This document shows, one piece after another, positions 5,752-53,095 of a stretch of 64,000 nucleotides of DNA. Position 1 is the stretch's first letter; every line of letters begins with the position of its first letter. Location: assembly GCF_965363235.1 (NCBI RefSeq), contig NC_134843.1, positions 48,913,535 through 48,977,534 of the forward strand, read 5' to 3'. The notes beneath the pieces are model-generated. The model saw only the letters and a program-made list of their open reading frames with translations. It had not been told where the DNA came from and made no database searches. This stretch comes from Mytilus galloprovincialis (lineage: Eukaryota; Mollusca; Bivalvia; Mytilida; Mytilidae). The position numbers were made by a program, and so were the translations under genes.

Positions 5752-5935
5752 CTCTGTATTATTCTTGATAATAATGATGTTTTGGCCCAGGCGGATAACC
5801 CTGGCCTCACAACTTTTTGGAACTTTTGGACCTCGGCGACCTTCATCTTTGTAGTTGTTATGGCTTTCAAACTTTTTACATCTGAGCATAAATTTGTGTG
5901 GACGAAGCGCGCGTCTGGCGTATAAAAATATTTTA
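5752..5935. repeat. Bivalve dispersed repeat (CGCGCGTCTGGCGTA type)
   Basis: CACAACTTTTTGGAACTTTT, TGTAGTTGTTATGGCTTTCA and GACGAAGCGCGCGTCTGGCG occur in order, a combination I recognise from many bivalve loci. Boundaries are approximate. Confidence 0.55.
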
Positions 5936-5951
5936 TAACCTGTTACATGTT

Positions 5952-6090
5952 GATGGCTCAGAGGCGTAGCATCCTAATTTATATTGGTACGGCAGAAAAT
6001 TATGATGGTCGCGAAGCGACGCATCCCGCCTCGGAGAGGCGGTTATGCGGCAAGGGGTTCGGGGGCCGCTCAAGGCCCCCGAGAAAATTT
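5952..6090. repeat. hAT-like end with three GC stem-loops
   Basis: CAGAGGCGTAGCATCC at 5952 resembles the CAGGGGCGTAGC transposon end, followed by GGTACGGCAG as in the element at 19939-20014. Three perfect stem-loops follow within 75 bp: GTCGC-GAA-GCGAC (6008-6020), CGCCTC-GGA-GAGGCG (6027-6041) and TCGGGGGCC-GCTCAA-GGCCCCCGA (6059-6082). Confidence 0.6.
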
Positions 6091-6104
6091 TAATAAATAG
6101 AGCA

Positions 6105-6370
6105 AAATCCTGCATTCTGACAACCTCCAGATACTTAAATTTGGTTCTCTAAAACCCTAGTTTTATGGGCAACAATTTAAAATATGACTCTTTTTTTTTT
6201 AAATCAAAATATAAAAATTTATGATAAAAAGTGCAACTTGAATCCTGCATTCTGACAATCTCCTGACACTTAAATTTAGTTCCTAAAAAAACTTGTTTCA
6301 TGTGCAATTATATTACTCTCTTGTGTTAAAATCAATTTCAAAATATAGAAAACAGAATTTGAAACATGAA
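6105..6370. repeat. Two-copy tandem repeat, ~140 bp
   Basis: Both copies begin with ATCCTGCATTCTGACAA and continue with CACTTAAATTTAG(T)TTC-like sequence. They are moderately diverged. Confidence 0.65.
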
Positions 6371-6989
6371 TCGTGTAGAAAAGGCAGCAATTAAACTTTA
6401 TCAAAAAAGTTGAAGGCCGTTGAACATCTTAGCTAAACTAAATACACGCACTTTAACTTTGTGCTGGACACCTTGCCAGGCCTTGGCATGCTCCTACAAT
6501 ACTTTTGATTGTTTTTTGTTTTTGAAAATTTTTGACAGAAAAAAAAGCGCCATTCCGAATATGCATACTGGTTGTAGGAAATTATTAAACTATCAAATCT
6601 TCGCTAAAAGTATTCAGGAAGTAAAGTGAACTATGAACAGACCGATGAACAGATTTTCAAAATTCCTTTTACAAAGACCAATAAATAAAAATGATGGATA
6701 ACTTTCAGAATTTCTCATACAATATCAAGTAAGGGTAAGACAAACGACCAATCTATGACACTGCGAAAAAAATCTATTTTCATTGTGAATATGGTTTCAT
6801 CGCAATAACGATCAATAAGTTTATGACGACAATGCTAGAACTGCTAAAGCGATAATATAGTAGCAACATAACAATGTTCAAACAACTTAGAACAAACAAA
6901 GTAAGAACATTTCTAGAGAGGGACATCCCAATTTACAAGTCATTTATAAAGGCATCGTGATTACAGATTAGTTTGTATATATTGTATCA
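6371..6989. other. No gene seen
   Basis: AT-rich spacer. The 69-codon plus-strand frame at 6420-6629 has no recognisable domain. Confidence 0.45.
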
Positions 6990-7207
6990 CCATCACTGTT
7001 AGCGATCCGATGGATAAATCTGTTGTAGAGTTGTCACTCGTTCAGACGTATTTAAATATTCTAAACATCAACCCAACAATGTTAGAACTGTAAATTTGCA
7101 TTAGCAAATTTTTTGTTTTTCCCTCACCAGAATTCGAACTGAGATATCGTGGTACCAAATTACATTGCACTATGATCGGCGCGCTAGACCAGTCGACCAC
7201 TTTGGCT
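6990..7207 (-). mobile_element. tRNA-derived SINE, minus strand
   Basis: Read on the minus strand from 7207, the sequence starts like a Ser/Leu-type tRNA: an A-box-like GTGGTCGACTGGTCTAGCG, a long variable part, then a B-box-like AGTTCGAATTCTGG at about 7127-7140. A non-tRNA body follows towards about 6990. It is a Pol III-type retroposon rather than a tRNA gene, because no acceptor stem closes and the B box is degenerate. It abuts the LINE fragment at 7216. No clear target duplication was found. Confidence 0.6.
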
Positions 7208-7215
7208 CTTATCAA

Positions 7216-7905
7216 AAGTGATAAACTAGAAAATATGCAACTTGAAGCGGCTATGCGAGTTACTGGCGGTACACTAAGCTATCACCCATAAACAAATTAT
7301 ACAATGAAGCAGGATGGGAGTTACTATCAGAAAGACGACGGTAAAAAACATGAAATGTTTCACAATAAGACCCCTGATTATTTAAGCGATATTATCCCTC
7401 ACAACTGTGTAATATTCATAACTATGACCCAAAACGAACGAATGACACACAACATATAAAGTGTAGAACAGCATTGTATCAGAAATCTTTTCTTACGTCA
7501 GTCATTCGATCCTGAAATGCTTTTCTGGACGATATCAGATTTGGTCCCATCTAAGTTTACACTTAAACGTTACCTTAATCAAAATTTAAGTAAAATACCA
7601 AATTATTATTTATATGGAGAATGGAAAGGACAAATACTTCATGCCAGACTTCGGATGGATTGCAGTAATCTAAACGAACATGTATTAAGAGAAATCTTGA
7701 AGAAATTAAAAACTGTACTTGTGGTAGAATCGAAAGCAGTAAGCATTGTCTTCTCGAGTGTACTCCCTTGTCCGAAAACGTACAATAGAAACTATTCCGT
7801 TCCCATAAAATATAAAACACTCCTGTTTGGATGATCCTGTTTGGCAAAATAACCTCAGTCAAGAGGAAAATCTACTTGTGTTTAAACAAGTTCAACAATT
7901 TTTAG
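7216..7905 (+). mobile_element. LINE fragment, C-terminal part of ORF2, broken
   Basis: Translation in more than one frame gives the post-RT tail of a molluscan non-LTR retrotransposon: LEKMQLEAAMRVTGG near 7230, DYLSDIIPHN near 7375, SDLVPSKFTLKRYLNQNL near 7540-7590 and ILHARLRMDCSNLN near 7635. DPVWQNNLSQEENLLVFKQV follows near 7830-7890. The endonuclease and RT core are absent, so it is 5'-truncated or cut by the neighbouring SINE. Frame changes and stops show it is dead. The 105-codon frame at 7517-7834 is part of this remnant. Confidence 0.75.
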
Positions 7906-8667
7906 TAGATTCAAAGCCATTTGGAATATATAGTATTTCATGGTTAGGATCGTAATTGGGTAAGACAGTCTTGACAAAGTGCTGGACACACACCAACCCG
8001 GTACATATCATATAGGAAAGATCAGACAAAAAAATCAACTTTTTATATGCAGTTATTTGCCTTTTTTTTTTACAGGGAGACTGATTAATATATGAAGAGA
8101 AATACTGATTCGAATCCCTAAGTAATGTATTTCTGTAATTATATGCATATGACATGTATACATGTACATGTTTTTTTTTATATGATATGTTTTAAAAGAA
8201 AAAAAACCCAGGTATTTCAGGGGGAAAGGTTGGTAACCGGAAAAAAAATACATAACAGTTAGATGCAGAGAGTTCAGGGAATATAATGGAATAGCATTTT
8301 CTAATAGCATTAAACGTGTTTGTAAACCGTCGAAGATCAGACTTGGGGCTTCAGTAACTAAAATTTAAAAAAATCACTGTGACTAGGACTGGTCTATCAT
8401 TATGTACTTTATTTCTAAGGATCATGCAAAGGTTGGCACGTCTACTATGTGAATGCTATGTGAATGCTATTATATCCACGGCGAATATTCGTAACACTTG
8501 CTTTCAGATTTTAGCGTCACGGAACGCTAAATACTTTTAGTTTTTTGTTTTTTTTTTCGATATCACACAGTAGATTGCAGATTTGTAGAGTGTAAAACTC
8601 CAAAATTACGAGAAATAATATACAACCAAGTGTCGCACGGAACTTTTGAACATTTAGTTTATTATAT
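7906..8667. other. No gene seen
   Basis: AT-rich sequence with poly-T runs and a short GTGAATGCTAT duplication near 8450. The small minus-strand frames are not supported. Confidence 0.45.
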
Positions 8668-8865
8668 ATAAAATTCGGTACGCACTGAAACCCGGACCGG
8701 ACCGGACTCCGGACCCGGACTCAATATATAGTATCAAAGCATGTCCAATTAAGTTTTTGTAAGATGTTTGTTCATCTTCAATTAAGACTATTTTCATTTA
8801 CTTGACTTACGATACCTGCAAGACACTTGCGATGCAGATTATTTTTTTTGTAACATAGGATCCGG

Positions 8866-11800
8866 ACTAGCTTGAGGTTACTATACTAGGGATACCTGTG
8901 TGTATTGCAGTACGAGATTTAGCTATTAAACTGTATACAAACGGTGTATTGTTGTAAAGATTGTTGACGGAAAAGTGGATGAATTAATTTTTTTTTACTA
9001 AAATCTCACTTTATAAAATATATTAAGCCGAGATTTAAGGAAATAATTGAAAGTTGGTCAAATACGACGGGTCCGGGTGGTGACCTTACATGACCCCGGA
9101 CTAAGTGTATTGCTAAATATGGCATCTAGAACAATGATACAAAACTGCAGAAATTATTTGACGAAGACATCTTTTTCATGTTTATTCATTTACCCGTTTT
9201 CTCATTTGTTTATAAAGGGCAAAAATAACAAAAGCCGGTTATAAGAGAAAGATAAAAAAAACCAAGGTGAGTCCGGCCCTTGACCTGAAATAACCCCCGA
9301 CTTATATAAACAGCAAAACAGAAATAAACTCATTTAATTGTTTGGTTGAAATATTTGAGGTTTTTTTCTTCTTCATTCATTTCTTTATATATATGTTGAG
9401 GCGATGGTCCTCGGATAAATCAATAAAAGACAATAAATCCGCGATTATAACATGTAATAAACAATATTGGACAGGTGAGTCCGGCACTTGACCTGACATG
9501 ACCCCGGACTAGCTTGAGGTTACTATACTAGGGATACCTGTGTGTATTGCAATACGAGATTTAGCTATTAAACTGTATACAAACGGTGTATTGTCGTAAA
9601 GATTGTTGACGGGAAATTTGATCAAAGGAAAAGTTTGGACTAAAATCTCACTTTATAAAACATATTAATCCGAGTATATACGAAATAATTTAAAGTTGGT
9701 CAAATATGACGGGTCCGGGTGGTGACCTTACATGACCCCGGACTAAGTGTATTGCAAAATATGGCATCTAGAACAATGATACAAAACTGCAGAAATTATT
9801 TGACGAAGACATCTTTTTCATGTTTATTCATTTACCCGTTTGCTCATTTGATTATAAAGGGCAAAAATAACAAAAGCCGGTTATAAGAGAAAGATAAAAA
9901 AAACCAAGGTGAGTCCGGCCCTTGACCTGAAATAACCCCGGACTTATATAAACAGCACAACAGAAATAAACTCATTTAATTGCTTGGTTGAAATATTTGA
10001 GGTTTTTTTTCTTCTTCATTCATTTCTTTATATATATATGTTGAGGCGATGGTCCTCGAAAAAATCAATAAAAGACAATAAATCCGCAATTATAACATGT
10101 AATAAACAATATTGGACAGGTGAGTCCGGCTCTTGACCTGACATGACCCCGGACTAGCTTGAGGTTACTATACTAGGGATACCTGTGTGTATTGCAGTAC
10201 GAGATTTAGCTATTAAACTGTATACAAACGGTGTATTGTCGTAAAGATTGTTGACGGGAAATTTGATCAAAGGAAAAGTTTGGACTAAAATCTCACTTTA
10301 TAAAACATATTAATCCGAGTATATACGAAATAATTTAAAGTTGGTCAAATAAGACGGGTCCGGGTGGTGACCTTACATAACACCGGACTAAGTGTATTGC
10401 AAAATATGGCATCTAGAACAATGATACAAAACTGCAGAAATTATTTGACAAAGACATCTTTTTCATGTTTATTCATTTACCCGTTTGCTCATTTGATTAT
10501 AAAGGGCAAAAATAACAAAAGCCGGTTATAAGAGAAAGATAAAAAAAACCAAGGTGAGTCCGGCCCTTGACCTGAAATAACCCCGGACTTATATAAACAG
10601 CAAAACAGAAATAAACTCATTTAATTGCTTGGTTGAAATATTTGAGGTTTTTTTTCTTCTTCATTCATTTCTTTATATATATATGTTGAGGCGATGGTCC
10701 TCGAAAAAATCAATAAAAGACAATAAATCCGCAATTATAACATGTAATAAACAATATTGGACAGGTGAGTCCGGCTCTTGACCTGACATGACCCCGGACT
10801 AGCTTGAGGTTACTATACTAGGGATACCTGTGTGTATTGCAGTACGAGATTTAGCTATTAAACTGTATACAAACGGTGTATTGTCGTAAAGATTGTTGAC
10901 GGGAAATTTGATCAAAGGAAAAGTTTGGACTAAAATCTCACTTTATAAAACATATTAATCCGAGTATATACGAAATAATTTAAAGTTGGTCAAATAAGAC
11001 GGGTCCGGGTGGTGACCTTACATAACACCGGACTAAGTGTATTGCAAAATATGGCATCTAGAACAATGATACAAAACTGCAGAAATTATTTGACAAAGAC
11101 ATCTTTTTCATGTTTATTCATTTACCCGTTTGCTCATTTGATTATAAAGGGCAAAAATAACAAAAGCCGGTTATAAGAGAAAGATAAAAAAAACCAAGGT
11201 GAGTCCGGCCCTTGACCTGAAATAACCCCGGACTTATATAAACAGCAAAACAGAAATAAACTCATTTAATTGCTTGGTTGAAATATTTGAGGTTTTTTTT
11301 CTTCTTCATTCATTTCTTTATATATATGTTAAGGCGATGGTCCTCGGATAAATCAATAAAAGACAATAAATCCGCGATTATAACATGTAATAAACAATAT
11401 TGGACAGGTGAGTCCGGCACTTGACCTGACATGACCCCGGACTAGCTTGAGGTTACTATACTAGGGATACCTGTGTGTATTGCAATACGAGATTTAGCTA
11501 TTAAACTGTATACAAACGGTGTATTGTCGTAAAGATTGTTGACGGGAAATTTGATCAAAGGAAAAGTTTGGACTAAAATCTCACTTTATAAAACATATTA
11601 ATCCGAGTATATACGAAATAATTTAAAGTTGGTCAAATATGACGGGTCCGGGTGGTGACCTTACATGACCCCGGACTAAGTGTATTGCAAAATATGGCAT
11701 CTAGAACAATGATACAAAACTGCAGAAATTATTTGACGAAGACATCTTTTTCATGTTTATTCATTTACCCGTTTGCTCATTTGATTATAAAGGGCAAAAA

Positions 11801-14800
11801 TAACAAAAGCCGGTTATAAGAGAAAGATAAAAAAAAACAAGGTGAGTCCGGCCCTTGACCTGAAATAACCCCGGACTTATATAAACAGCAAAACAGAAAA
11901 AAACTCATTAAATTGCTTGGTTGAAATATTTGAGTTTTTTTTTCTTCTTCATTCATTTCTTTATAAATATGTTGAGGCGATGGTCCTCGGAAAAATCAAT
12001 AAAAGACAATAAATCCGCGGTTATAACATGTAATAAACAATATTGGACAGGTGAGTCCGGCTCTTGACCTGACATGACCCCGGACTAGCTTGAGGTTACT
12101 ATACTAGGGATACCTGTGTGTATTGCAATACGAGATTTAGCTATTAAACTGTATACAAACGGTGTATTGTCGTAAAGATTGTTGACGGGAAATTTGATCA
12201 AAGGAAAAGTTTGGACTAAAATCTCACTTTATAAAACATATTAATCCGAGTATATACGAAATAATTTAAAGTTGGTCAAATATGACGGGTCCGGGTGGTG
12301 ACCTTACATGACCCCGGACTAAGTGTATTGCAAAATATGGCATCTAGAACAATGATACAAAACTGCAGAAATTATTTGACGAAGACATCTTTTTCATGTT
12401 TATTCATTTACCCGTTTGCTCATTTGATTATAAAGGGCAAAAATAACAAAAGCCGGTTATAAGAGAAAGATAAAAAAAAACAAGGTGAGTCCGGCCCTTG
12501 ACCTGAAATAACCCCGGACTTATATAAACAGCAAAACAGAAAAAAACTCATTAAATTGCTTGGTTGAAATATTTGAGTTTTTTTTTCTTCTTCATTCATT
12601 TCTTTATAAATATGTTGAGGCGATGGTCCTCGGAAAAATCAATAAAAGACAATAAATCCGCGGTTATAACATGTAATAAACAATATTGGACAGGTGAGTC
12701 CGGCTCTTGACCTGACATGACCCCGGACTAGCTTGAGGTTACTATACTAGGGATACCTGTGTGTATTGCAATACGAGATTTAGCTATTAAACTGTATACA
12801 AACGGTGTATTGTCGTAAAGATTGTTGACGGGAAATTTGATCAAAGGAAAAGTTTGGACTAAAATCTCACTTTATAAAACATATTAATCCGAGTATATAC
12901 GAAATAATTTAAAGTTGGTCAAATATGACGGGTCCGGGTGGTGACCTTACATGACCCCGGACTAAGTGTATTGCAAAATATGGCATCTAGAACAATGATA
13001 CAAAACTGCAGAAATTATTTGACGAAGACATCTTTTTCATGTTTATTCATTTACCCGTTTGCTCATTTGATTATAAAGGGCAAAAATAACAAAAGCCGGT
13101 TATAAGAGAAAGATAAAAAAAACCAAGGTGAGTCCGGCCCTTGACCTGAAATAACCCCGGACTTATATAAACAGCACAACAGAAATAAACTCATTTAATT
13201 GCTTGGTTGAAATATTTGAGGTTTTTTTTCTTCTTCATTCATTTCTTTATATATATATGTTGAGGCGATGGTCCTCGAAAAAATCAATAAAAGACAATAA
13301 ATCCGCAATTATAACATGTAATAAACAATATTGGACAGGTGAGTCCGGCTCTTGACCTGACATGACCCCGGACTAGCTTGAGGTTACTATACTAGGGATA
13401 CCTGTGTGTATTGCAGTACGAGATTTAGCTATTAAACTGTATACAAACGGTGTATTGTCGTAAAGATTGTTGACGGGAAATTTGATCAAAGGAAAAGTTT
13501 GGACTAAAATCTCACTTTATAAAACATATTAATCCGAGTATATACGAAATAATTTAAAGTTGGTCAAATAAGACGGGTCCGGGTGGTGACCTTACATAAC
13601 ACCGGACTAAGTGTATTGCAAAATATGGCATCTAGAACAATGATACAAAACTGCAGAAATTATTTGACAAAGACATCTTTTTCATGTTTATTCATTTACC
13701 CGTTTGCTCATTTGATTATAAAGGGCAAAAATAACAAAAGCCGGTTATAAGAGAAAGATAAAAAAAACCAAGGTGAGTCCGGCCCTTGACCTGAAATAAC
13801 CCCGGACTTATATAAACAGCAAAACAGAAATAAACTCATTTAATTGCTTGGTTGAAATATTTGAGGTTTTTTTTCTTCTTCATTCATTTCTTTATATATA
13901 TATGTTGAGGCGATGGTCCTCGAAAAAATCAATAAAAGACAATAAATCCGCAATTATAACATGTAATAAACAATATTGGACAGGTGAGTCCGGCTCTTGA
14001 CCTGACATGACCCCGGACTAGCTTGAGGTTACTATACTAGGGATACCTGTGTGTATTGCAGTACGAGATTTAGCTATTAAACTGTATACAAACGGTGTAT
14101 TGTCGTAAAGATTGTTGACGGGAAATTTGATCAAAGGAAAAGTTTGGACTAAAATCTCACTTTATAAAACATATTAATCCGAGTATATACGAAATAATTT
14201 AAAGTTGGTCAAATAAGACGGGTCCGGGTGGTGACCTTACATAACACCGGACTAAGTGTATTGCAAAATATGGCATCTAGAACAATGATACAAAACTGCA
14301 GAAATTATTTGACAAAGACATCTTTTTCATGTTTATTCATTTACCCGTTTGCTCATTTGATTATAAAGGGCAAAAATAACAAAAGCCGGTTATAAGAGAA
14401 AGATAAAAAAAACCAAGGTGAGTCCGGCCCTTGACCTGAAATAACCCCGGACTTATATAAACAGCAAAACAGAAATAAACTCATTTAATTGCTTGGTTGA
14501 AATATTTGAGGTTTTTTTTCTTCTTCATTCATTTCTTTATATATATGTTAAGGCGATGGTCCTCGGATAAATCAATAAAAGACAATAAATCCGCGATTAT
14601 AACATGTAATAAACAATATTGGACAGGTGAGTCCGGCACTTGACCTGACATGACCCCGGACTAGCTTGAGGTTACTATACTAGGGATACCTGTGTGTATT
14701 GCAATACGAGATTTAGCTATTAAACTGTATACAAACGGTGTATTGTCGTAAAGATTGTTGACGGGAAATTTGATCAAAGGAAAAGTTTGGACTAAAATCT

Positions 14801-15975
14801 CACTTTATAAAACATATTAATCCGAGTATATACGAAATAATTTAAAGTTGGTCAAATATGACGGGTCCGGGTGGTGACCTTACATGACCCCGGACTAAGT
14901 GTATTGCAAAATATGGCATCTAGAACAATGATACAAAACTGCAGAAATTATTTGACGAAGACATCTTTTTCATGTTTATTCATTTACCCGTTTGCTCATT
15001 TGATTATAAAGGGCAAAAATAACAAAAGCCGGTTATAAGAGAAAGATAAAAAAAAACAAGGTGAGTCCGGCCCTTGACCTGAAATAACCCCGGACTTATA
15101 TAAACAGCAAAACAGAAAAAAACTCATTAAATTGCTTGGTTGAAATATTTGAGTTTTTTTTTCTTCTTCATTCATTTCTTTATAAATATGTTGAGGCGAT
15201 GGTCCTCGGAAAAATCAATAAAAGACAATAAATCCGCGGTTATAACATGTAATAAACAATATTGGACAGGTGAGTCCGGCTCTTGACCTGACATGACCCC
15301 GGACAAGCTTGAGGTTACTATACTAGGGATACCTGTGTGTATTGCAGTACGAGATTTAGCTATTAAACTGTATACAAACGGTTTATTGTTGTAAAGATTG
15401 TTGACGGAAAAGTGGATGAATTAATTTTTTTTTACTAAAATCTCACTTTATAAAATATATTAAGCCGAGATTCAAGGAAATAATTGAAAGTTGGTCAAAT
15501 AAGACGGGTCCGGGTGGTGACCTTACATGACCCCGGACTAAGTGTATTGCTAAATATGGCATCTAGAACAATGATACAAAACTGCAGAAATTATTTGTAG
15601 AAGACATCTTTTTCATGTTTATTCATTTACCCGTTTGCTCATTTGATTATAAAGGGCAAAAATAAGAAAAGCCGGTTATAAGAGAAAGATAAAAAAAAAC
15701 CAAGGTGAGTCCGGCCCTTGACCTGAAATAACCCCGGACTTATATAAACAGCAATACAGAAATAAACTCATTTAATTGCTTGGTTGAAAGATTTGATTAT
15801 TATTTTTGTTTGTTAAAGCTATATATATTAACGATGACCATCATGTAACAAACAATATTGGACAGGACTATCTTGAAGTTACTACACTAGGAATACCTGT
15901 GTGTATTGCATTACGATATTTTGCTTTTTAACTTTATACAAACTGTTTATTGTAATAAAGCTTGTTGCTGAAAAA
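8866..15975. repeat. Satellite array, ~644-bp monomers, higher-order structure
   Basis: The phrase GGTGAGTCCGGC(A/T)CTTGACC recurs at 9474, 10119, 10764, 11407, 12050, 12693, 13338, 13983, 14626 and 15269, giving monomers of 643 or 645 bp. A first monomer without this head starts at about 8866, and a decayed piece of another ends near 15975. Three monomer types can be told apart by linked variants, and their order repeats with a five-monomer period of 3219 bp. Each monomer has three related motifs about 200-235 bp apart, built as TCCGG, TGACCT, four bases, TGACCC and CCGGAC. Edge monomers (the first and the one at 15269) differ most from the centre, as expected if unequal exchange homogenises the middle. 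Confidence 0.95.
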
Positions 15976-16084
15976 AAAAAACGAATGGAAAACAACATTC
16001 AATACCATTATTTTTTTATATATATATTTGCATTCTTTAATGTACAACTTAATTTAAAAAAAAAAGAATGAAAATAGTACTTAC

Positions 16085-16163
16085 CAAGCAAAACGTCAAT
16101 ATCATCAGCTGAACAAAATGCACGGTCTCTATAAGTGTAAACTATTGCTGTGTCTGAATCCAT
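16085..16163 (-). CDS. Candidate first coding exon of the 10.1-kb element (unrecognised)
   Basis: On the minus strand an ATG at 16163 opens 26 codons (MDSDTAIVYTYRDRAFCSAD near the start) that run directly into a near-ideal splice donor, TTG|GTAAGTAC, at 16085/16084. The frame lies inside the 10.1-kb element just right of the satellite and points into it, where no continuing exon is found. It could be the remaining first exon of the element's own protein or a captured host exon. I do not recognise the family, and chance is possible for so short a frame. Confidence 0.3.
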
Positions 16164-16904
16164 AGTGAATAATGAAAGTATCACCAGAAATTCTTGGTTT
16201 TATATTCAAATAAACGTTGTCATGAGAAAATGTCATTTTTATTGCAGCCCCTTTTTGACTTCGCATAATAAGTAAGGGTAGATACCAGGTGTTGGAAGAG
16301 TAGGTTGACACGTCGGGGGTATATAGGTATATTCCAAATATACAAATCTCTAATTAACTTTTGACGCAAGAAATATACTTGATGTCAGTAAATTAATTTA
16401 ATGAGTTTGAAATTATTTTGTGTAATGAGAAGGAGTTGGTCACAAGAATGCAGATTAATGCTGGCATGCGAATACATAGTAAATTGTAGTTTAGAGATAT
16501 TACAAAATATTAAAACTTATATTAAAGAATGTTTTTAACTATCAATATAATATAAATGCAGCAATAACAGTATTTGCATAAATTCTAAAATATATTATAC
16601 AACCTATTTTATTCCTGCTTTTTTAAATCTTCTACGACTGGCTTTTTTGGCGCATGACTTGGTCTTTCTATGGGTAAGATAATGGAATCATGCTGATACT
16701 TATATTCCTATTTTGATAAGATCGTCATTATGGTTTTTGTCTCTCAATTGAAAAGAAATTATATTTAAGCGCTTTGCTCATGGTAGATCCTTTAATTTGA
16801 ATAAAATATGATCATTTACAAGTGAACACAAACAAACAAAATCATATTTTTGTTGTATATGTATGACATAACTTTTGTGTAAATGGTAATGGCTCTTATA
16901 AACA

Positions 16905-17103
16905 CATTTTTATATAAATGAGGTTGTTAGGTTTCGTTTAAATTGTTTGACATTGTCATTTCGGGGCCTTTTATAGCTGCCTATGTGGTATGGGCTTTCC
17001 TCATTATTGAAGACCGTACGGTTACCTTTATATGTTAATATCTGTGTCATTTTGGTTTCTTGTGGAGTGTTGTCTCTTTTGCAATCATACCCCATCTTCG
17101 TTT
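16905..17103 (-). repeat. GATGTGGTATGATTG repeat family, minus copy
   Basis: In reverse it contains GACACAGATATTAACATATA, ACCGTACGGTCTTCAATAAT and CGAAATGACAATGTCAAACA, the body of a dispersed repeat present about nine times in this window. It sits inside the 10.1-kb element and is therefore younger than that element or was carried with it. Confidence 0.75.
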
Positions 17104-18675
17104 TTTATAATTTTTTTTACATATTGACTATAATACATAATCTGAATTAAAGCATATCCCTGCTCCATAAGAAGGACTCTTGATGACGTGTGATATTAAA
17201 CGATGTAACAGAGGCTTTGGTGGTAATCATAATCCAATTGACTCCTCTTATTACATATTTATTTTATTCTAATCCAAAAGAACGATGAGATACCTTCATA
17301 AAGATGCTTTTTAGTATCTTTCTCTCGTTTTCGTCTATTACGCTCTTGTTGCATATGAGTGTTCGGCGTCCCTGTTAACGAAGGGGAGATGTGGAAAGAC
17401 TAACAGTTCTGTATCCATCTGAGTCCACATCTAAGACAGTTTTTTCGAGGATGGGGAGATTCATTTTTTTACGGAATCCAATATTCTGTTGATAAAATTT
17501 ATGTCTCATTTGAAAGAACTCAATAAAATGTACGTGTATGTATAACTTAAGAACCAAAGCGGTATTTTTGGAATGGGTACGTCTAACCACCGCTCAGGGC
17601 CTCCTGAGTGCACTAAGGAAATACAAAGTGCAATTAGGACCCTTTATAGTCAACGTATTTATACCCAAGATTGATTTATATATTCGTTTATACACGCTGG
17701 TTATTTTAGAGTTAAATGTTGGTAGAATTTGAAATCGAACTTAGATAGATATGTTAATAATTATTGCAATAATTTTTAAGGAAGGAAAATATAATAATTT
17801 GAATTTTGCGATCAGCATTTCATTAATTTCAATTCTCTGTTTTATCAAATATTTTAGTCTGCAAAAAAATTAAAACGATTTTTAATTTGCTCTAACGAAA
17901 ACGGAACAAATGGATGGGAATGGCAGTAATTTCAAAGGGAGAAAATTACTTTAAAGTTTTCAATCCGTGAACAGAATTTATTAAATTTCAATCATGCAAT
18001 GGATATACCAAGCCACTTTGACTTTTTGAAAACAAGTAGTATACTACGTACATAGTTTGACTTTTAATCGCTTGAGTTTAATATCATAAAACTATAAAAA
18101 GGGTCATCATATATATGATGATAAGAATGCTCTCGAATTACACTCGGGACCTGAAATGAATCCAGAGTACGATTATAGATTTTAAAATATCGGTTAGCTG
18201 ATAGACAGTCACAGGACAAATCACATAAAAAAACACAAATTTGATAGGACAAAAAGTCACAAATAATTCGTTGACGATTATTTGAATATATATAAGAGAA
18301 AGTGCTTGAAATATTTCTTTTTACTCCATATATATATTTTCATTTTTAAGTTAAAGAAATTTTTCATAAGCCTTGAAAATGAAAAGTGATTTAATTTTAT
18401 TCCTGCAAAGGACATATTTCTTGGCACTATGAAGCAATTTAAGTACCTTAACATTTTGTTTTTATAACATTTTTCAAAAAGAGGAAAAACAATTCTAGGG
18501 AACTTTCCCTTTATAATGTTTTAACCAGTCTGTGTAAAAGCTTATTCTTCTTTATTTATATTGTTTCAACCGACCAGAAACATATATATTTACATGTATA
18601 TATGTAAATATGTCTCTGACCTGACCGTCAATAACTGTTAATTGCATTAAAGATCATTAAATAGGTCAAAACAAT
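17104..18675. other. Right interior of the 10.1-kb element; no gene seen
   Basis: AT-rich. ORFs up to 71 codons (for example 17375-17590 minus) lack recognisable domains. The 122-codon minus-strand frame at 18666-19034 reads through the GTCCGG end repeats into flanking DNA and is not credible as a gene. Confidence 0.45.
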
Positions 18676-18792
18676 TGAGTCCGGGTCCGGTATCCAGTCC
18701 GGGTCCGGCGTCCGGTCCGGGTCAGGGTTTCATACTTGAGTCCGGGTCCGGAGTCCGGTCCGGTCCGGGTTTCAGTGCGTACCATAAAATTC

Positions 18793-19360
18793 ACACTATA
18801 ACTGTTAAATGAAGAAAAAAAAATGTTATTTTCCAATAAAAAATGTGTTAAATTACAAGTGAAAATCGCATTCAGTTTTTTTTTGTATGTTTTGTTCAAA
18901 ATGCAACATTCTTTGCAAACACTTCTTAAAATCTTGAAGGAAAACAAAAAGCCATATATACAACGCACATTAGCAAAAATGAAAGACGCGATCACAAAAA
19001 TATACCATAGCACAAATTTAATGATATCACACATTCACAATGGCGGGATGTATAAGTACCGAGCCACGTCAAATAGATATTACCAAAACATGACTAATGA
19101 TAAAACAGTAAAAATGTGTTACTGTATATGGTGTTGTTGAAGTTGGATTCTATTCCGATCGTTTTGGTGCCTAGAAGCAGAATGTGCATTTTAACAATGT
19201 GCAGATCGTTTATTTGTCTCTGTAGCGGATAGATCGGCACGCAATAAAATTGGGACAACTCGTTTATATTTTAGTCATGATTACTTAAACTTTATGGTGC
19301 ATGCATACAGAGTAACTGACAATATTTTTCAGTTGCAAAAAATAAAATAGCAAAAATACC
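18793..19360. other. No gene seen
   Basis: AT-rich. The 105-codon plus-strand frame at 18823-19140 has low-complexity composition and no domain I recognise. Confidence 0.45.
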
Positions 19361-23495: not shown

Positions 23496-25596
23496 CCAGG
23501 TGCTCCGCAGGGCGCAGCTTTATACGATCGCAGAGGTCGAACCCTGAACAGTTGGGGCAAGTATGGTCAAAACATTCAAGCGTGATACAGCTCTGACTTT
23601 GGATTGTGATCAAATTTTTGACATTATATGGTGTTTTTTTACACAAAACAAATGTCAAGATTTTACAAATCAATTAAAGATTTCTTCTTCAAACTTATTT
23701 CAATCTAAAATTAAATAGTTGACACAGCATAGGTTTCCGACACAGAATGAATGAGGTCTAATGAACTTAAACATTAAATTTTGCCTTTGAGCAATTCACT
23801 ATGCAGTTGAATATTAATCCTCTCAAAAAAATGTTTGAAGACATTTTCTTTTTATTTATGAAATCTGAAATGAGAAAAATTTAACCCCCCCCCCATTTTT
23901 TTCTTCACATCCCCCTTTCCCTTTTTCCAAAACTGATATCAATTAAAATTTCTAATGGAGTTTGCAACAGTAACTACTCTTAAATACATCATAAAATATT
24001 AATATGTAAAATAAAGTGCTTGTTATCACTGAATGGTAAAGATTTGTTGGTAGTAAAAGTGAATATACATTGTATATTGTATAAAACAATGATTTAAGTT
24101 GAGTCAACTACTATTCTGAACAAAGAAAGATAACTCCAATTGAAAATTTCTTGCTATTGCACAATATTGTGCAATTAGATATTTTTTGCTATTGCGCAAT
24201 ACTGTGCAATTGAAAATATTTGCTATTGCACAGTACTGTGCAATTGAAGATTTCTTGCTATTGCGCAAAACTGTGCAATTGAAAATTTCGTGCTATTGCA
24301 CAATACTGTGCAATTGAAGATTTCTTGCTATTGCTGAATACTGTGAAATTCAAAATTTCTATATATAATAATTTTGGATCCTGATTTGAACCAACTTGAA
24401 AACTGGGTCCATAATCAAAAATCTAAGTACATGTTTAGATTCAGCATATCAAAAAAGCCCAAGAATTCATTTTTTGTTATAATCAAACTTAGTTTAATTT
24501 TGGACCCTTTGGACTTTAATGTAGACCAATTTGAAAACGGGACCAAAAATTAAGAATCTACATACACAGTTAGATTTGGCATATCAAAGAACCCCAATTA
24601 TTCAATTTTTGATGAAATCAAACGAAGTTTAATTTTGGACCCCGATTTGGAACAACTTGAAAACTGGACCAATAATCAAAAATCTAAGTACATTTTTATA
24701 TTCAGCATATCAAAGAACCCCAAGGATTCAATGTTTGTTAAAATCAAACTAAGTTTAATTTTGGACCCTTTGGACCTTAATGTAGACCAATTTGAAAACG
24801 GGACCAAAACTGAAAAATCTACATACACAGTTAGATTCGGCATATCAAAGAACCCCAATTATTCAATTTTCGATGAAATTGAACCCTTTGGGCCCCTTAT
24901 TCCTAAACTGTTGGGACCAAAACTCCCAAAATCAAACCCAACCTTCCTTTTATGGTCATAAACCTTGTGTTTAAATTTCATAGATTCCTATTTACTTATA
25001 CTAAAGTTCTGGTGCAAAAACCAAGAATAATGCTTATTTGGGCCCCTTTTGGCCCCTAATTCCTAAACTGTTGTGACAACAACTCCCAAAATCAATCCCA
25101 ACCTTCCTTTTGTAGTCATAAACTTTGTGTTTACATTTCATTGATTTCTATTCACTTATACTAAAGTTATTGTGCGAAAACCAAGAATAATGCTCATTTT
25201 GGCCCTTTTTTGGCTCCTAATTCCTAAACTGTTGGAATCAAACATCCCAAAATCAATCCCAACCTTCCTTTTGTGGTCATAAACCTTGTGTTAAAATTTC
25301 ATAGATTTCTATTTACTTAAACTAAAGTTATAGTGCGAAAACCAAGAAAATGCTTATTTGGGCCCTTTTTGGCCCCTTATTCCTAAAATATTGGAAACAA
25401 AACTCCCAAAATCAATCCCAACCTTCTTTTATGGTCATAAACCTTGTGTTAAAATTTCATAGATTTCTATTCACTTTTACTAAAGTTAGAGTGCGAAAAC
25501 TAAAAGTATTCGGACGACGACGACGACGACGACGACGACGCCAACATCATACCAATATACGACCAAAAAATTTTCAATTTTTGCGGTCGTATAAAA
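23496..25596 (+). mobile_element. 2.1-kb modular repeat element, copy 1
   Basis: The head reads GCTCCGCAGGGCGCAGC, then TTTATACGATCGCAGAGG. The tail reads TTTTTGCGGTCGTATAAAAA, so TTTATACGACCGCA forms a short inverted end. Between them lie three tandem modules. Module A is six ~37-40-bp palindromes such as TTGCACAATACTGTGCAA (24150-24355). Module B is ~137-bp units with TTTAATTTTGGACCC and GATTCAGCATATCAAAGAA (24370-24890). Module C is ~170-bp units with TGGTCATAAACCTTGTGT and TTTCATAGATTTCTATT (24890-25500). A GAC microsatellite (about 25510-25542) comes just before the tail. Frames of 60-108 codons here come from module B and are not genes. Confidence 0.8.
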
Positions 25597-34244: not shown

Positions 34245-36206
34245 ATATTTTAACCAGATGCTCCGCTGGGTGCAGCTTTATACGACTGTAGAATTTGAAC
34301 CCTGAACAGTTGGGGCAAGTATGGACACAACATTCAAGCTTGATACAGCTCTGAATTTTGATTGTGATTAAATAGTTGACACAACACAGGTTTCTGACAC
34401 ATAATGAATGTGGTCTAAGAACTTAAACTAAACCAGATGCTCCGCAGGGCGCAGCTTTATACGACCGCAGAGGTTGAACCCTGAACGGTTGGGGCAAGTA
34501 TGGACACAACTTTCAAGCTGGATTCAGCTCTAAATTTGGACTCTGATTAAATAGTTGACACAGCATAGGTTTCTGACACAGAATGAATGTGGTCTAATGA
34601 ACTTAAAATGTTTATTTTGCCTTTGAGCAATTCACTATGCTGTTGAATATTAATCCTCTCAAAAAAATTTAAGAAATAGCAATAACTACTCATTTAAATA
34701 CATCATAAAATATTAAAATGTAAAAAAAGTGCTTGTTATCACTGAATGGTAAAGATTGTTTAATTTATCAGTTGGTAGTAAAAGTGAATATACATTGTAT
34801 ATTGTATAAAACAATGATTTAAGTTGATTCAACTACTATTCTGGACAAAGAAAGATAACTCCAATCAATTGAAAATTTCTTGCTATTGCACAATATTGTG
34901 CAATTAGATATTTCTTGCTATTGCGCAATACTGTGCAATTGAAAATATTTGCTATTGCACAATACTGTGTAATTGAAGATTTCTTGCTATTGCTTAATAC
35001 TGTGTAATTGAAAATTTCTTGCTATTGCACAATACTGTGCAATTGAAGATTTCTTGCTATTGCTGAATACTCTGCAATTGAAAATTTCTTGCTATTGCAC
35101 AATACTTAATATAATAATTTTAGATCCTGATTTGGACCAACTTGAAAACTGGGCCCATAATCAAAAATCTAAGTACATGTTTAGATTCAGCATATCAAAG
35201 AAGCCCAAGAATTCAATTTTTGTTAAAATCAAGCTAAGTTTAATTTTGGATCCTTTGGACCTTTTTGTTGACCAATTTGAAAACGAGACCAAAAATTAAG
35301 AATCTACATACACAGTTAGAATCGGCATATCAAAGAACCCCAATTATTCAATTTTTGATGAAATCAAACAAAGTTTAATTTTGGACCCCGATTTGGAACA
35401 ACTTGAAAACTGGGCCAATAATCAAAAATCTAAGTACATTTTTAGATTCAGCATATCAAAGAACCCCATGGATTCAATTTTTGTCAAAATCAAACAAAGT
35501 TTAATTTTGGACCCTTTGGACCTTAATGTAGACCAATTTGAAAACTGGACCAAAATTTTATGGTCATAAACCTTGTGTTTAAATTTCATAGATTTCTATT
35601 TACTTATACTAAAGTTATGGTGCAAAAACCAAGAAAAATGCTTATTTGGGCCCCTTTTTGGCCCCTAATTCCTAAACTGTTCGGACCTCAACTCCCAAAA
35701 TCAATCCCAACCTTCCTTTTGTGGTCATAAACCTTGTGTTTAAATTTCATTGATTTCTATTTACTTTTACTAAAGTTATTGTGCGAAAACCAAGAATAAT
35801 GCTTACTTGGGCCTTTTTTTTTGCCCCCTAATTCCTGAACTGTTGAAACCAAAACTCCCAAAATCAATCCCAACCTTCCTTCTGTGGTCATTAACCTTGT
35901 GTCAAAATTTCATAAATTTCTATTTACTTAAACTAAAGTTATAGTGCGAAAACCAAGAAAATGCTTATTTGGGCCCTTTTTGGTCCCAAAATTCCTAAAA
36001 TGTTGGGATCAAAGCTCCCAAAACCAATCCCAACCTTCTTTTTGTGGTCATAAACCTTGTGTTAAAATTTCATAGATTTCTATTCACTTTTACTAAAGTT
36101 AGAGTGCGAAAACTAAAAGTATTCGGACGACGACGACGCAGGACGACGACACCAACGTGATAGCAATATACGACGAAAAATGAAATTTTTTGCGGTCGTA
36201 TAAAAA
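34245..36206 (+). mobile_element. Modular repeat element, copy 2, with duplicated head
   Basis: It has the same order of parts as 23496-25596: head, palindrome module, ~137-bp module, ~170-bp module, GAC run, and tail TTTTGCGGTCGTATAAAAA. The head (GATGCTCCGC..GGGGCAAGTATGG) occurs twice, at about 34256 and 34437. The palindrome module (34871-35110) has seven units against six in copy 1. Frames of 62-81 codons are by-products of the ~137-bp units. Confidence 0.8.
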
Positions 36207-37564
36207 CATTAAATTTTAAATTGAACATTACCTATTGTGGTCCAATATCCAAAATCTAAATACATGGTTAGATTCAGCATATCAAAGAACCCCAAGAATT
36301 CAATTTTTGATGAAATCAAATAAAGTTCAATTTTGGACCCTTTAGACCTCAATGTGGACCAATCTGATAACCGGGCCAAAACATCAAAAATCTAAATACA
36401 TGGTTAGATTAAGCATATCTCAAAGAACCCCATATATACAATTTTTATTGAAATCAAACAAAGTTTAATTTTGGACCGCAATTTGGACCAACTTGAAAAC
36501 TGGGCCTATAATAAAAAATCTAAATACAGGTTTAGATTCAGAATATCAAAGAACTCCAAAGATTCAGTTTTTGTTGATATCAAACAAAGTTTAATTTTGG
36601 ACCATGATTTGGACCAACTTGAAAACTGGGCCCATAATAAAATTATAAGTACATGTTTAGATTCAGCATATCAAAAAACCCCAAGAATTTAATTTTTGTT
36701 GAAATCAAACAAAGTTTAATTTTGGACCCCAATTTTGACCACATTGCAAACTGGGCCAATCATCAAAAATCTAAGTACATGTTTAATAGATTGAGCATAT
36801 CAAAGAACCCCAAGATTTCAATTTTTGTTAAAATCAAACTTAGTTTAATTTTGGACCCTTTGGACCTTAATGTAGACCAATTTGAAAATGGGACCAAAAA
36901 TTAAGAATCTACATACACAGTTAGATTCGGCATATCAAAGAACCCCAATTATTCAATTTTTGATGAATTCAAACAAAGTTTAATTTTGGACCCTTTGGGC
37001 CCTTATTCCTAAACTTACTGTTGGGACCAAAACTCCCAAAATTAATCCCAACCTTCCTTTTATGGTCATAAACCTTGTGTTTAAATTTCATAGATTTCTA
37101 TTTACTTATACTTAAGAAGTTCAGTTATGGTGCGAAAACCAAGAAAAATGCTTATTTGGGCCCCTTTTTGGCCCCTAATTCCTAAACTATTGGGACCTCA
37201 ACTCCCAAAATCAATCCCAACCTTCCTTTTGTGTTCATAAACCTTGTTTAAATTTCATAGATTTCTATTCACTTATACTAAAGTTATAGTTCGAAAACCA
37301 AGAAAATGTTTATTTGGGCCCTTTTTAGCCCCTAATTCCCAAACTGTTGGACCAAAACTTCCAAAATCAATCCCAACCTTCCTTTTATGGTCATAAACCT
37401 TGTGTTTAAATTTCATAGATTTCTATTCACTTATACTAAAGTTATAGTGTGAAAACCAAAAATCTTCAGACGCCGACAACGACGACGACTACAACGCCAA
37501 AGTGATACCAAGTGATACCAATATACGACCAAAAAATTTTCAATTTTTGCGGTCGTATAAAAAT
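36207..37564 (+). mobile_element. Modular repeat element, copy 3, headless
   Basis: It begins within the ~137-bp module right after the tail of copy 2 and ends with its own ~170-bp units, GAC/CGA run and GCGGTCGTATAAAAATGA. Head and palindromes are missing, which suggests unequal exchange between two adjacent copies or a truncated insertion. Confidence 0.75.
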
Positions 37565-52810: not shown

Positions 52811-53095
52811 ACTGTGGTTTAACCAGAGACAATTGTATTATATGACTGTGGTTTAACCAGAGACAATTGTATTATATGACTGTGGTTTAACCAGAGACAA
52901 TTTTATTATATGACTGGGTTAACCAGAGACAATTGTATTATATGACTGGTTTAACCAGAGACAATTGTATTATATGACTGTGGTTTAACCAGAGACAATT
53001 GTATTATATGACTGTGGTTTAACCAGAGACAATTGTATTATATGACTGTGGTTTAACCAGAGACAATTGTATTATGTGACTGTGGTTTAACTCAA
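52811..53095. repeat. 34-bp minisatellite, about eight units
   Basis: Unit ACTGTGGTTTAACCAGAGAC followed by AATTGTATTATATG. Two units are shortened at ACTG(T)GGTTT. Each unit contains the palindrome GGTTTAAACC-like GGTTTAACC. Confidence 0.92.

Follow-up and report, generated by a model that had tools for sequence, protein, structure and literature searches.

Evidence for a satellite array inherited as an internal module by a non-autonomous, probably Rehavkus-like Mutator transposon of the mussel Mytilus galloprovincialis

Introduction

The birth of satellite DNA is an old question, and a link between mobile elements and satellites is already known, in bivalves too. Here, we describe a 10.1-kb block of the mussel Mytilus galloprovincialis, most of which is a tandem satellite, at positions 8677-18783 of a 64,000-nucleotide stretch of genomic DNA (assembly GCF_965363235.1, contig NC_134843.1, positions 48,913,535 to 48,977,534, forward strand), which is referred to as the window. 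Other loci are given by sequence name and position (for example C14:42.84 Mb, or C1_89.64 for a copy).

Several related systems have been described. In the Mutator superfamily, target duplications range from 8 to 11 bp (PMC6446971). Rehavkus elements, the hosts of which are insects (arthropods in the table) and annelids, have a 9-bp duplication, terminal inverted repeats (TIRs) of 26-400 bp, a PHD finger and a minisatellite before the 3' TIR, and a minisatellite is also entered in the table for aphid Phantom (PMC6446971). Rehavkus-1_TC of Tribolium carries the 164-bp satellite TCsat23 in its inverted termini, mostly in five or eight copies (PMC10218199). Tetris (or TIR-220) of Drosophila virilis is non-autonomous, with 8-10-bp duplications and a suggested place in the Mutator superfamily, and its tandem repeats seed kb-size satellite-like arrays in modular, rearranged copies (PMC4079207). 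In Crassostrea gigas, the mobile Cg_HINE Helentrons hold central arrays that resemble satellites (PMC7492417), and oyster Helitrons hold up to about 90 monomers according to a review (PMC10048060). Finally, the tandem repeats of Galileo, a Drosophila element of the P superfamily, hold multiple transposase-binding sites (PMC3688188).

Set beside these systems, the block in the window is very probably a non-autonomous cut-and-paste copy of the Mutator superfamily (probably Rehavkus-like), in which the satellite array is inherited as an internal module.

The element and its family

The block is a single transposition unit of 10.1 kb with a perfect 48-bp TIR and a 9-bp target duplication, made up of the following parts.

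8668..8676, no strand: target duplication, left copy, ATAAAATTC; single at six paralogous empty sites
8677..8724, plus strand: left TIR, 48 bp, beginning GGTACGCACTGAAACCCGGACCGG; its first 20 bp occur at 71 genome places
8725..8861, no strand: left subterminal stretch
8862..15796 (about), plus strand: type-A satellite array of ten complete units (u1-u10, 642-645 bp each) and some partial ones
9071..15739, plus strand: 31-bp core, 31 copies, first to last
15865..15967, plus strand: partial and degenerate satellite unit, inner edge of the array
15968..18660, no strand: A/T-rich interior without long reading frame
18674..18735, minus strand: inner CCGGAC-rich imperfect inverted repeats (I2, I3), adjoining the right end
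18736..18783, minus strand: right TIR, 48 bp, perfect complement of the left TIR
18784..18792, no strand: target duplication, right copy, ATAAAATTC

A preliminary description, made from the letters of this DNA, had proposed that the whole 10.1 kb was one mobile unit with inverted ends and a 9-bp target duplication, that about 70% of it was satellite, and that satellite and ends had GTCCGG/CCGGAC words in common. The first proposal is borne out by TIR arms (8677-8724 and 18736-18783) that are complementary at 48/48 positions, by the flanking 9-mers, which were found where it had placed them, and by empty sites. The satellite fraction of the element is 0.70, and the word counts agree with the last proposal (the array has 63 against a shuffled mean of 1.2, the left 48 bp five, the right 123 bp 11 and the 2.8-kb interior 0), the likeness being seen at the level of the word CCGGAC. 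Its further suggestion that the satellite may derive from the ends goes beyond this shared word, as a longer alignment between the two was neither found nor searched for. In the interior (15968-18660), the longest stop-to-stop frame lying fully within it has 91 amino acids.

The family was defined by searching the mussel's own 1.385-Gb genome with the first 20 bp of the TIR (≤2 mismatches), which occur at 71 places versus 0 for the reversed pattern used as a control. These places form 26 adjacent inverted (+/-) pairs less than 35 kb apart, with a spacing of 0.88-29.6 kb, where 0.03 pairs were expected, and 19 of the 71 are ends without a partner. The best-matching ends have up to 45-48 bp in common; with a 124-bp query (8677-8800), matches elsewhere are limited to the first 48-49 bases (40 of 71 candidates scored). 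Twenty-two of the pairs were fetched, whole or at both ends (the other four are at C12:80.5, C13:54.55, C14:6.43 and C14:18.78 Mb), and an exact 9-bp target duplication is found in 17 of them, while random flank 9-mers matched 0/20,000 times. The ends thus do occur elsewhere as inverted pairs with duplications of the expected length (8-10 bp), on which the preliminary description had staked its reading. An assembly artefact or a chance TIR is ruled out by the 26 pairs, the 17/22 exact duplications and the empty sites. One pair, C2:92703886-92708776, has unmatched flanks, a satellite unit identical to one in the C2:83.36 Mb pair and one TIR with a rare variant in common with that same pair, which suggests a rearrangement between the two.

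Empty sites, which the preliminary description expected to hold a single ATAAAATTC, were sought for 14 elements by joining 80 bases of left flank to 71 of right flank (67 for one element), with 40 of 712 candidates scored. Junction-spanning matches were found for at least five elements, and none for the other nine among the scored candidates. The window has six empty sites (C13:9.82, C2:36.91, C12:33.51, C5:28.94, C11:21.18 and C6:92.79 Mb), all paralogous, with a single ATAAAATTC, an unbroken junction and 94.6-96.7% identity over 336-392 columns; the 2-13 gap positions in these alignments all lie away from the junction. A single 9-mer is likewise present at one aligned empty site each for C5_10.17, C5_18.51, C1_89.64 and C4_21.05. 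The insertion target itself (window 8477-8676 + 18793-18983) is a dispersed repeat with at least six copies elsewhere, 94.6-96.7% identical.

The satellite as a module of the family

In the window, the satellite is internal and in a single orientation, and its unit is a trimer with one 31-bp core per third, hence three per unit. Used as a query, the 645-bp window unit reveals two kinds of array, type A and type B (~620 bp), which are ~70% identical. Type A is carried by the window, C4:21.05 Mb and C13:53.73 Mb, while type B is found in most other copies, and a type B fragment also lies near one end in two type-A copies. The cores are on one strand in all core-bearing fetched copies except C10_34.35 (6 vs 10). 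The latter (C10:34353942-34376294; 22.4 kb, with family ends) holds its satellite as two oppositely oriented arrays, together with a second, unrelated complex tandem array at about local 5905-14000.

Since a DNA search with the 645-bp unit missed the largest array (C14:42.84 Mb), clusters were recounted by core pattern searches. The exact core pattern occurs at 313 genome places, versus 0 for its reversed control. Cluster positions come from the first 100 of these 313 places and from complete place lists for the B core variant (80 places) and the A core variant (35 places; ≤2 mismatches). At least 32 clusters were counted in this way (a cluster lacking both core variants and missed by the 645-bp search would fall outside this number): 21 within pairs, eight inward of an unpaired end, about 0.5-8.6 kb from that end on its inner side, and three elsewhere. 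The satellite is therefore a member module of this transposon family and almost wholly confined to it, in agreement with the expectation that it should be found mostly within such pairs. No match to the core was found in viral contigs.

These counts bear on the idea that we are dealing with an independent genomic satellite, captured by chance when an ordinary transposon inserted into or beside it. In its favour, the three remaining clusters (C11:29.716 Mb, C14:21.194 Mb and contig C187) are remote from every end found, but the other 29 of the 32 are in a pair or inward of an end. Even the C14:21.194 Mb cluster is probably a relic that has lost its ends, because a non-satellite type-A interior is also present there (about 90% identity). 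Moreover, both satellite types occur in the family despite being only ~70% alike, which makes the association of satellite and family an old one. Chance capture is, in our judgement, very unlikely.

Movement and growth of the array

The most direct evidence that the array travels comes from two copies, C5:10167384-10169947 and C5:18512484-18515047, which are in opposite orientation, carry the same array and are identical at 2564/2564 positions. They sit in differing targets, CAAATAACG and CTCCAAATT, and the array therefore moves with the element. The right part of the window element (interior and adjoining satellite) is in turn 98.5% identical over 4.47 kb to the 14.1-kb copy C4:21050165-21064242.

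Arrays also grow inside individual copies. In the window, the block u2-u5 is repeated without change as u7-u10, and u6 is a further copy of u5 (0 differences for u2=u7, u3=u8, u4=u9 and u5=u6=u10). In the 29.6-kb copy C14:42838305-42867855, one core occurs 38 times with a spacing of exactly 624 bp, and 18/20 unit intervals are identical in the two end stretches that were fetched (~10 kb each). Exact duplicate units in one copy and 38 evenly stepped units in another therefore point to growth within copies. Unit distances, compared at seven loci with two or more full units as the within-locus mean versus the nearest unit elsewhere, show units closer within a copy than to other copies at four: C14 (0.000-0.001 within vs 0.014-0.019 outside, the latter taken from other elements' rows), C1_89.64 (0.011 vs 0.019), C1_108.98 (0.006 vs 0.019-0.022) and the window (0.013 vs 0.014-0.017). 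The element interior seems prone to tandem duplication generally, since a satellite-free copy (C1:121311102-121316584), 99.8% identical to its neighbour at 121303978, has 2.1 kb extra beside its right end in which a 669-bp segment occurs twice (99.7%), and since C10_34.35 and C4_21.05 contain further unrelated tandem blocks.

Could the arrays have expanded solely after insertion, site by site, from a mobile unit that was satellite-free? The satellite was found in 21 of the 26 pairs, and there is no satellite match in the remaining five (the neighbours C1:121.30 and 121.31, C5:81.31, C6:29.96 and C14:18.78 Mb, the last unfetched), which is what this scenario would lead one to expect, as is the local homogenisation of some arrays. 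However, related arrays in 21 pairs are hard to reconcile with it, and the two base-identical 2564-bp copies at different targets, satellite included, refute post-insertion expansion as a sole process, which we hold to be extremely unlikely; local expansion is nevertheless part of the best explanation. The preliminary description had offered mobilisation with the satellite inside or expansion after insertion as alternatives; both find support (in the identical C5 copies and in growth within individual copies, respectively), and it is the either/or that falls. It had also suggested comparing monomer copy number between insertions, which proved to vary from no array found through a partial unit and ~2-10 units to 38 unit repeats.

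A conserved core within the satellite

The core has a constant length of 31 bp (GTCCGG-N4-TGACCT-N4-TRACMCCGGAC). In an alignment of type A and type B units (one unit each), it is identical at 80/93 columns versus 342/564 elsewhere (Fisher P = 5e-7), and 12 of the 13 core differences, counted by eye in the same alignment, fall in the two N4 gaps. The constraint rests on this alignment, the core pattern used in the seven-locus comparison being one that itself fixes most invariant positions. By these figures, the core evolves more slowly than the spacer and would thus be constrained, which suggests selection acting on a satellite. The simplest reading is that it is a protein-binding site. Its inner part, TGACCT-N4-TRACCC, resembles a nuclear-receptor site of the DR4 type, and the TGAC words within it are reminiscent of W-boxes. 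A bolder proposal, which we put forward tentatively and consider rather doubtful, is that the satellite is kept and not merely tolerated, the core being a predicted binding site built from the end word CCGGAC and the array an amplified platform for the transposase or a host factor. If so, such a platform, which in the largest copy (C14) would probably comprise about a hundred cores (38 of one variant were counted), would raise mobility or shield the element.

Transposase remnants and classification

The preliminary description left the element family unrecognised. Two kinds of remnant, together with the 9-bp duplication, now place it in the Mutator superfamily, where it is probably Rehavkus-like. 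The first kind, the C-terminus of a MULE transposase, is present in at least 15 of the 23 non-type-A pairs, as well as near at least six unpaired ends (150 of 1828 candidates scored). Its distance from one end, on the inner side, is 1.0-1.1 kb in 12 of these pairs and 1.6-3.4 kb in three. A long open relative on C2, in which the MULE domain PF10551 is found at 1e-13, matches the remnant in nine fetched copies (E ≤ 1e-3). Inside the copies only C-terminal remnants are thus seen, PF10551 being found in relatives elsewhere in the genome.

The second kind is seen in type-A copies. In C13:53731960-53740075, a 439-amino-acid frame contains Peptidase_C48 (20.8 bits, against a cut-off of 20.7) and a PHD finger (PF00628, 3e-06), ahead of which, upstream of Peptidase_C48, a SWIM-like C-x-C-x-H pattern was read by eye (no Pfam hit). 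C4:21050165-21064242 retains the last 126 residues of this Ulp1-PHD protein, PHD included (4.8e-07), and the remaining fetched copies gave no match to the protein (E ≤ 1e-3). The satellite abuts the frame at about residue 4 in C13 and about residue 314 in C4, as if two separate deletions, each ending in the array, had taken place. Homologues elsewhere connect this protein to MULE transposases: at C12:78.63 Mb, a PF10551 match is followed by SWIM-like and C48-like parts, in order and on one strand; at C7:89.96 Mb, PF10551 lies upstream of a SWIM-like part and of a fragment of the C48 part, again on one strand; and at C14:2.27 Mb, PF10551 lies upstream on the same strand as a SWIM-like part only.

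Larger pairs were examined as candidate autonomous copies, and no long transposase frame was found in those on C10 (22.4 kb, whole), C9 (19.2 kb, whole) or C14 (two ends); in its place C10_34.35 has its second complex tandem array and C14 its long satellite. A 906-amino-acid frame in C4_2.30 turned out to be a nested endonuclease-reverse transcriptase of the long interspersed nuclear element (LINE) type. Two other frames were noted: C12:11151500-11157500 has a 776-amino-acid frame in which a NADAR domain is joined to a protease domain of the Ulp1 type, a relative of the tail of the type-A transposase, and is possibly another mobile gene. C14:6439061-6442105 contains, from about base 1860, a 395-amino-acid open frame with a cysteine-rich start, which lies just outside the C14:6.43 Mb pair on its right.

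As for the superfamily, an 8-11 bp duplication is found (9 bp exact in 17/22, single copy at empty sites), as are TIRs (48 bp and perfect in the window). Within it, the 9-bp duplication, the PHD finger and the internal satellite, taken together, point to the Rehavkus branch. The duplication and a TIR length within 26-400 bp are as in Rehavkus, the PHD finger was found in two type-A copies only (C13:53.73 and C4:21.05 Mb), and the satellite is present in 21/26 pairs, with a 3' side that only a complete transposase gene would define. None of the fetched mussel copies yielded a Rehavkus catalytic domain (no Rehavkus reference sequence was compared).

The same mechanism could operate in an element that is not Rehavkus but belongs to another Mutator clade (Phantom-like or a mollusc MULE), the SWIM-Ulp1-PHD gene being a foreign insert in type-A copies. 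The MULE remnant of the 15 non-A pairs is indeed similar to a plain MULE transposase whose sole Pfam match is the MULE domain, the two remnant lineages are just 22% identical, and a minisatellite is tabled for aphid Phantom too (PMC6446971). On the other side, the type-A copies combine the whole 48-bp TIR of the family with the PHD protein, and a 9-bp duplication, a PHD finger and an internal minisatellite together make up the published Rehavkus description. We give this alternative placement a somewhat less than even chance.

Elsewhere in the window, two similar composite tandem-repeat blocks (24137-25500 and 34866-37459) have a 35-bp unit in common (6.4 + 6.9 copies), followed by 126/135-bp and then ~160-bp units, and 8.4 copies of a 34-bp unit (95% matches) lie at 52811-53091.

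Discussion

The scenario that we favour, an inherited satellite inside a non-autonomous Mutator copy, would work as follows: (i) a MULE-type transposase, supplied in trans, would act on the 45-48-bp ends, (ii) the unit moves whole, as shown above, with the satellite inside, and leaves a 9-bp target duplication, (iii) array length, which differs between copies, would change through unequal exchange or slipped repair of the gap left by excision and (iv) the CCGGAC-rich 31-bp core would be retained because it is bound by a protein, either transposase or a host factor. That tandem duplication would accompany gap repair after excision is suggested by the known behaviour of cut-and-paste elements.

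Several observations weigh against this scenario. An exact 9-bp duplication is missing from five of the 22 fetched pairs: the flanks agree at 8/9 positions at C2:83.36 Mb and C5:81.31 Mb (homopolymer) and hold an exact 8-mer at C6:29.96 Mb, and the duplication is absent from the flanks of the C2:92.70 and C6:89.23 Mb pairs. The empty sites are paralogous copies of repeats hit by the elements, not orthologous alleles. No end was found near three of the satellite clusters, and units are not closer within a copy at three of the seven loci (C10_34.35, C2_83.36 and C4_21.05). Among the 150 scored candidates, no MULE remnant was found in eight of the 23 non-A pairs. The two remnant types belong to distant MULE lineages (22% identity over 165 columns between their relatives), and either of them may be the one that acts on the ends. 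Lastly, there is no complete transposase in the 22 fetched pairs (the ~10-kb middle of the C14 copy, the four other pairs and the 19 unpaired ends lying outside what was read), which is why we infer that its source acts in trans.

What this low-copy family offers is many stages of satellite birth side by side in one genome: in some copies no array was found, others have a partial unit or about 2-10 units, and in one the nearly identical units extend over about 24 kb. Since each stage lies between ends that can be recognised, and empty sites were found for five of the copies tested, the order of events is directly readable: the element moves with its array, which then expands in place, and there is hardly any free satellite in the assembly. 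The 31-bp core, for its part, provides a testable motif. In the literature searched, we found no Rehavkus-like element in such a host, no array so nearly confined to its element and no constrained satellite core.

Comparison with known systems

The likeness to Rehavkus lies in the 9-bp duplication, a TIR within 26-400 bp, the PHD finger and tandem repeats inside the element. It has its limits in Rehavkus-1_TC, since TCsat23 is 164 bp and terminal, whereas the mussel unit is 620-645 bp, internal and present in up to 38 copies. Tetris is similar in being non-autonomous, in duplication length, in its Mutator link, in tandem repeats that give rise to arrays and in its modular copies. It is, however, a foldback element with ~220-bp repeats within both TIRs, while the mussel element has a 48-bp TIR and an internal array; tandem repeats are not found in both its TIRs, and cores on both strands are seen only in C10_34.35.

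Helentrons are of the rolling-circle type, which is not known to have a TIR pair or a target duplication, unlike the mussel element with its perfect TIRs and 9-bp duplications, which is thus no Helentron. Array size is no record either, as the oyster Helitron arrays of up to ~90 monomers exceed the 38 found here. Galileo, finally, differs in belonging to another superfamily and in having its repeats within long TIRs, but it is a precedent for the role that we infer for the 31-bp core: binding has been demonstrated there and is predicted here.

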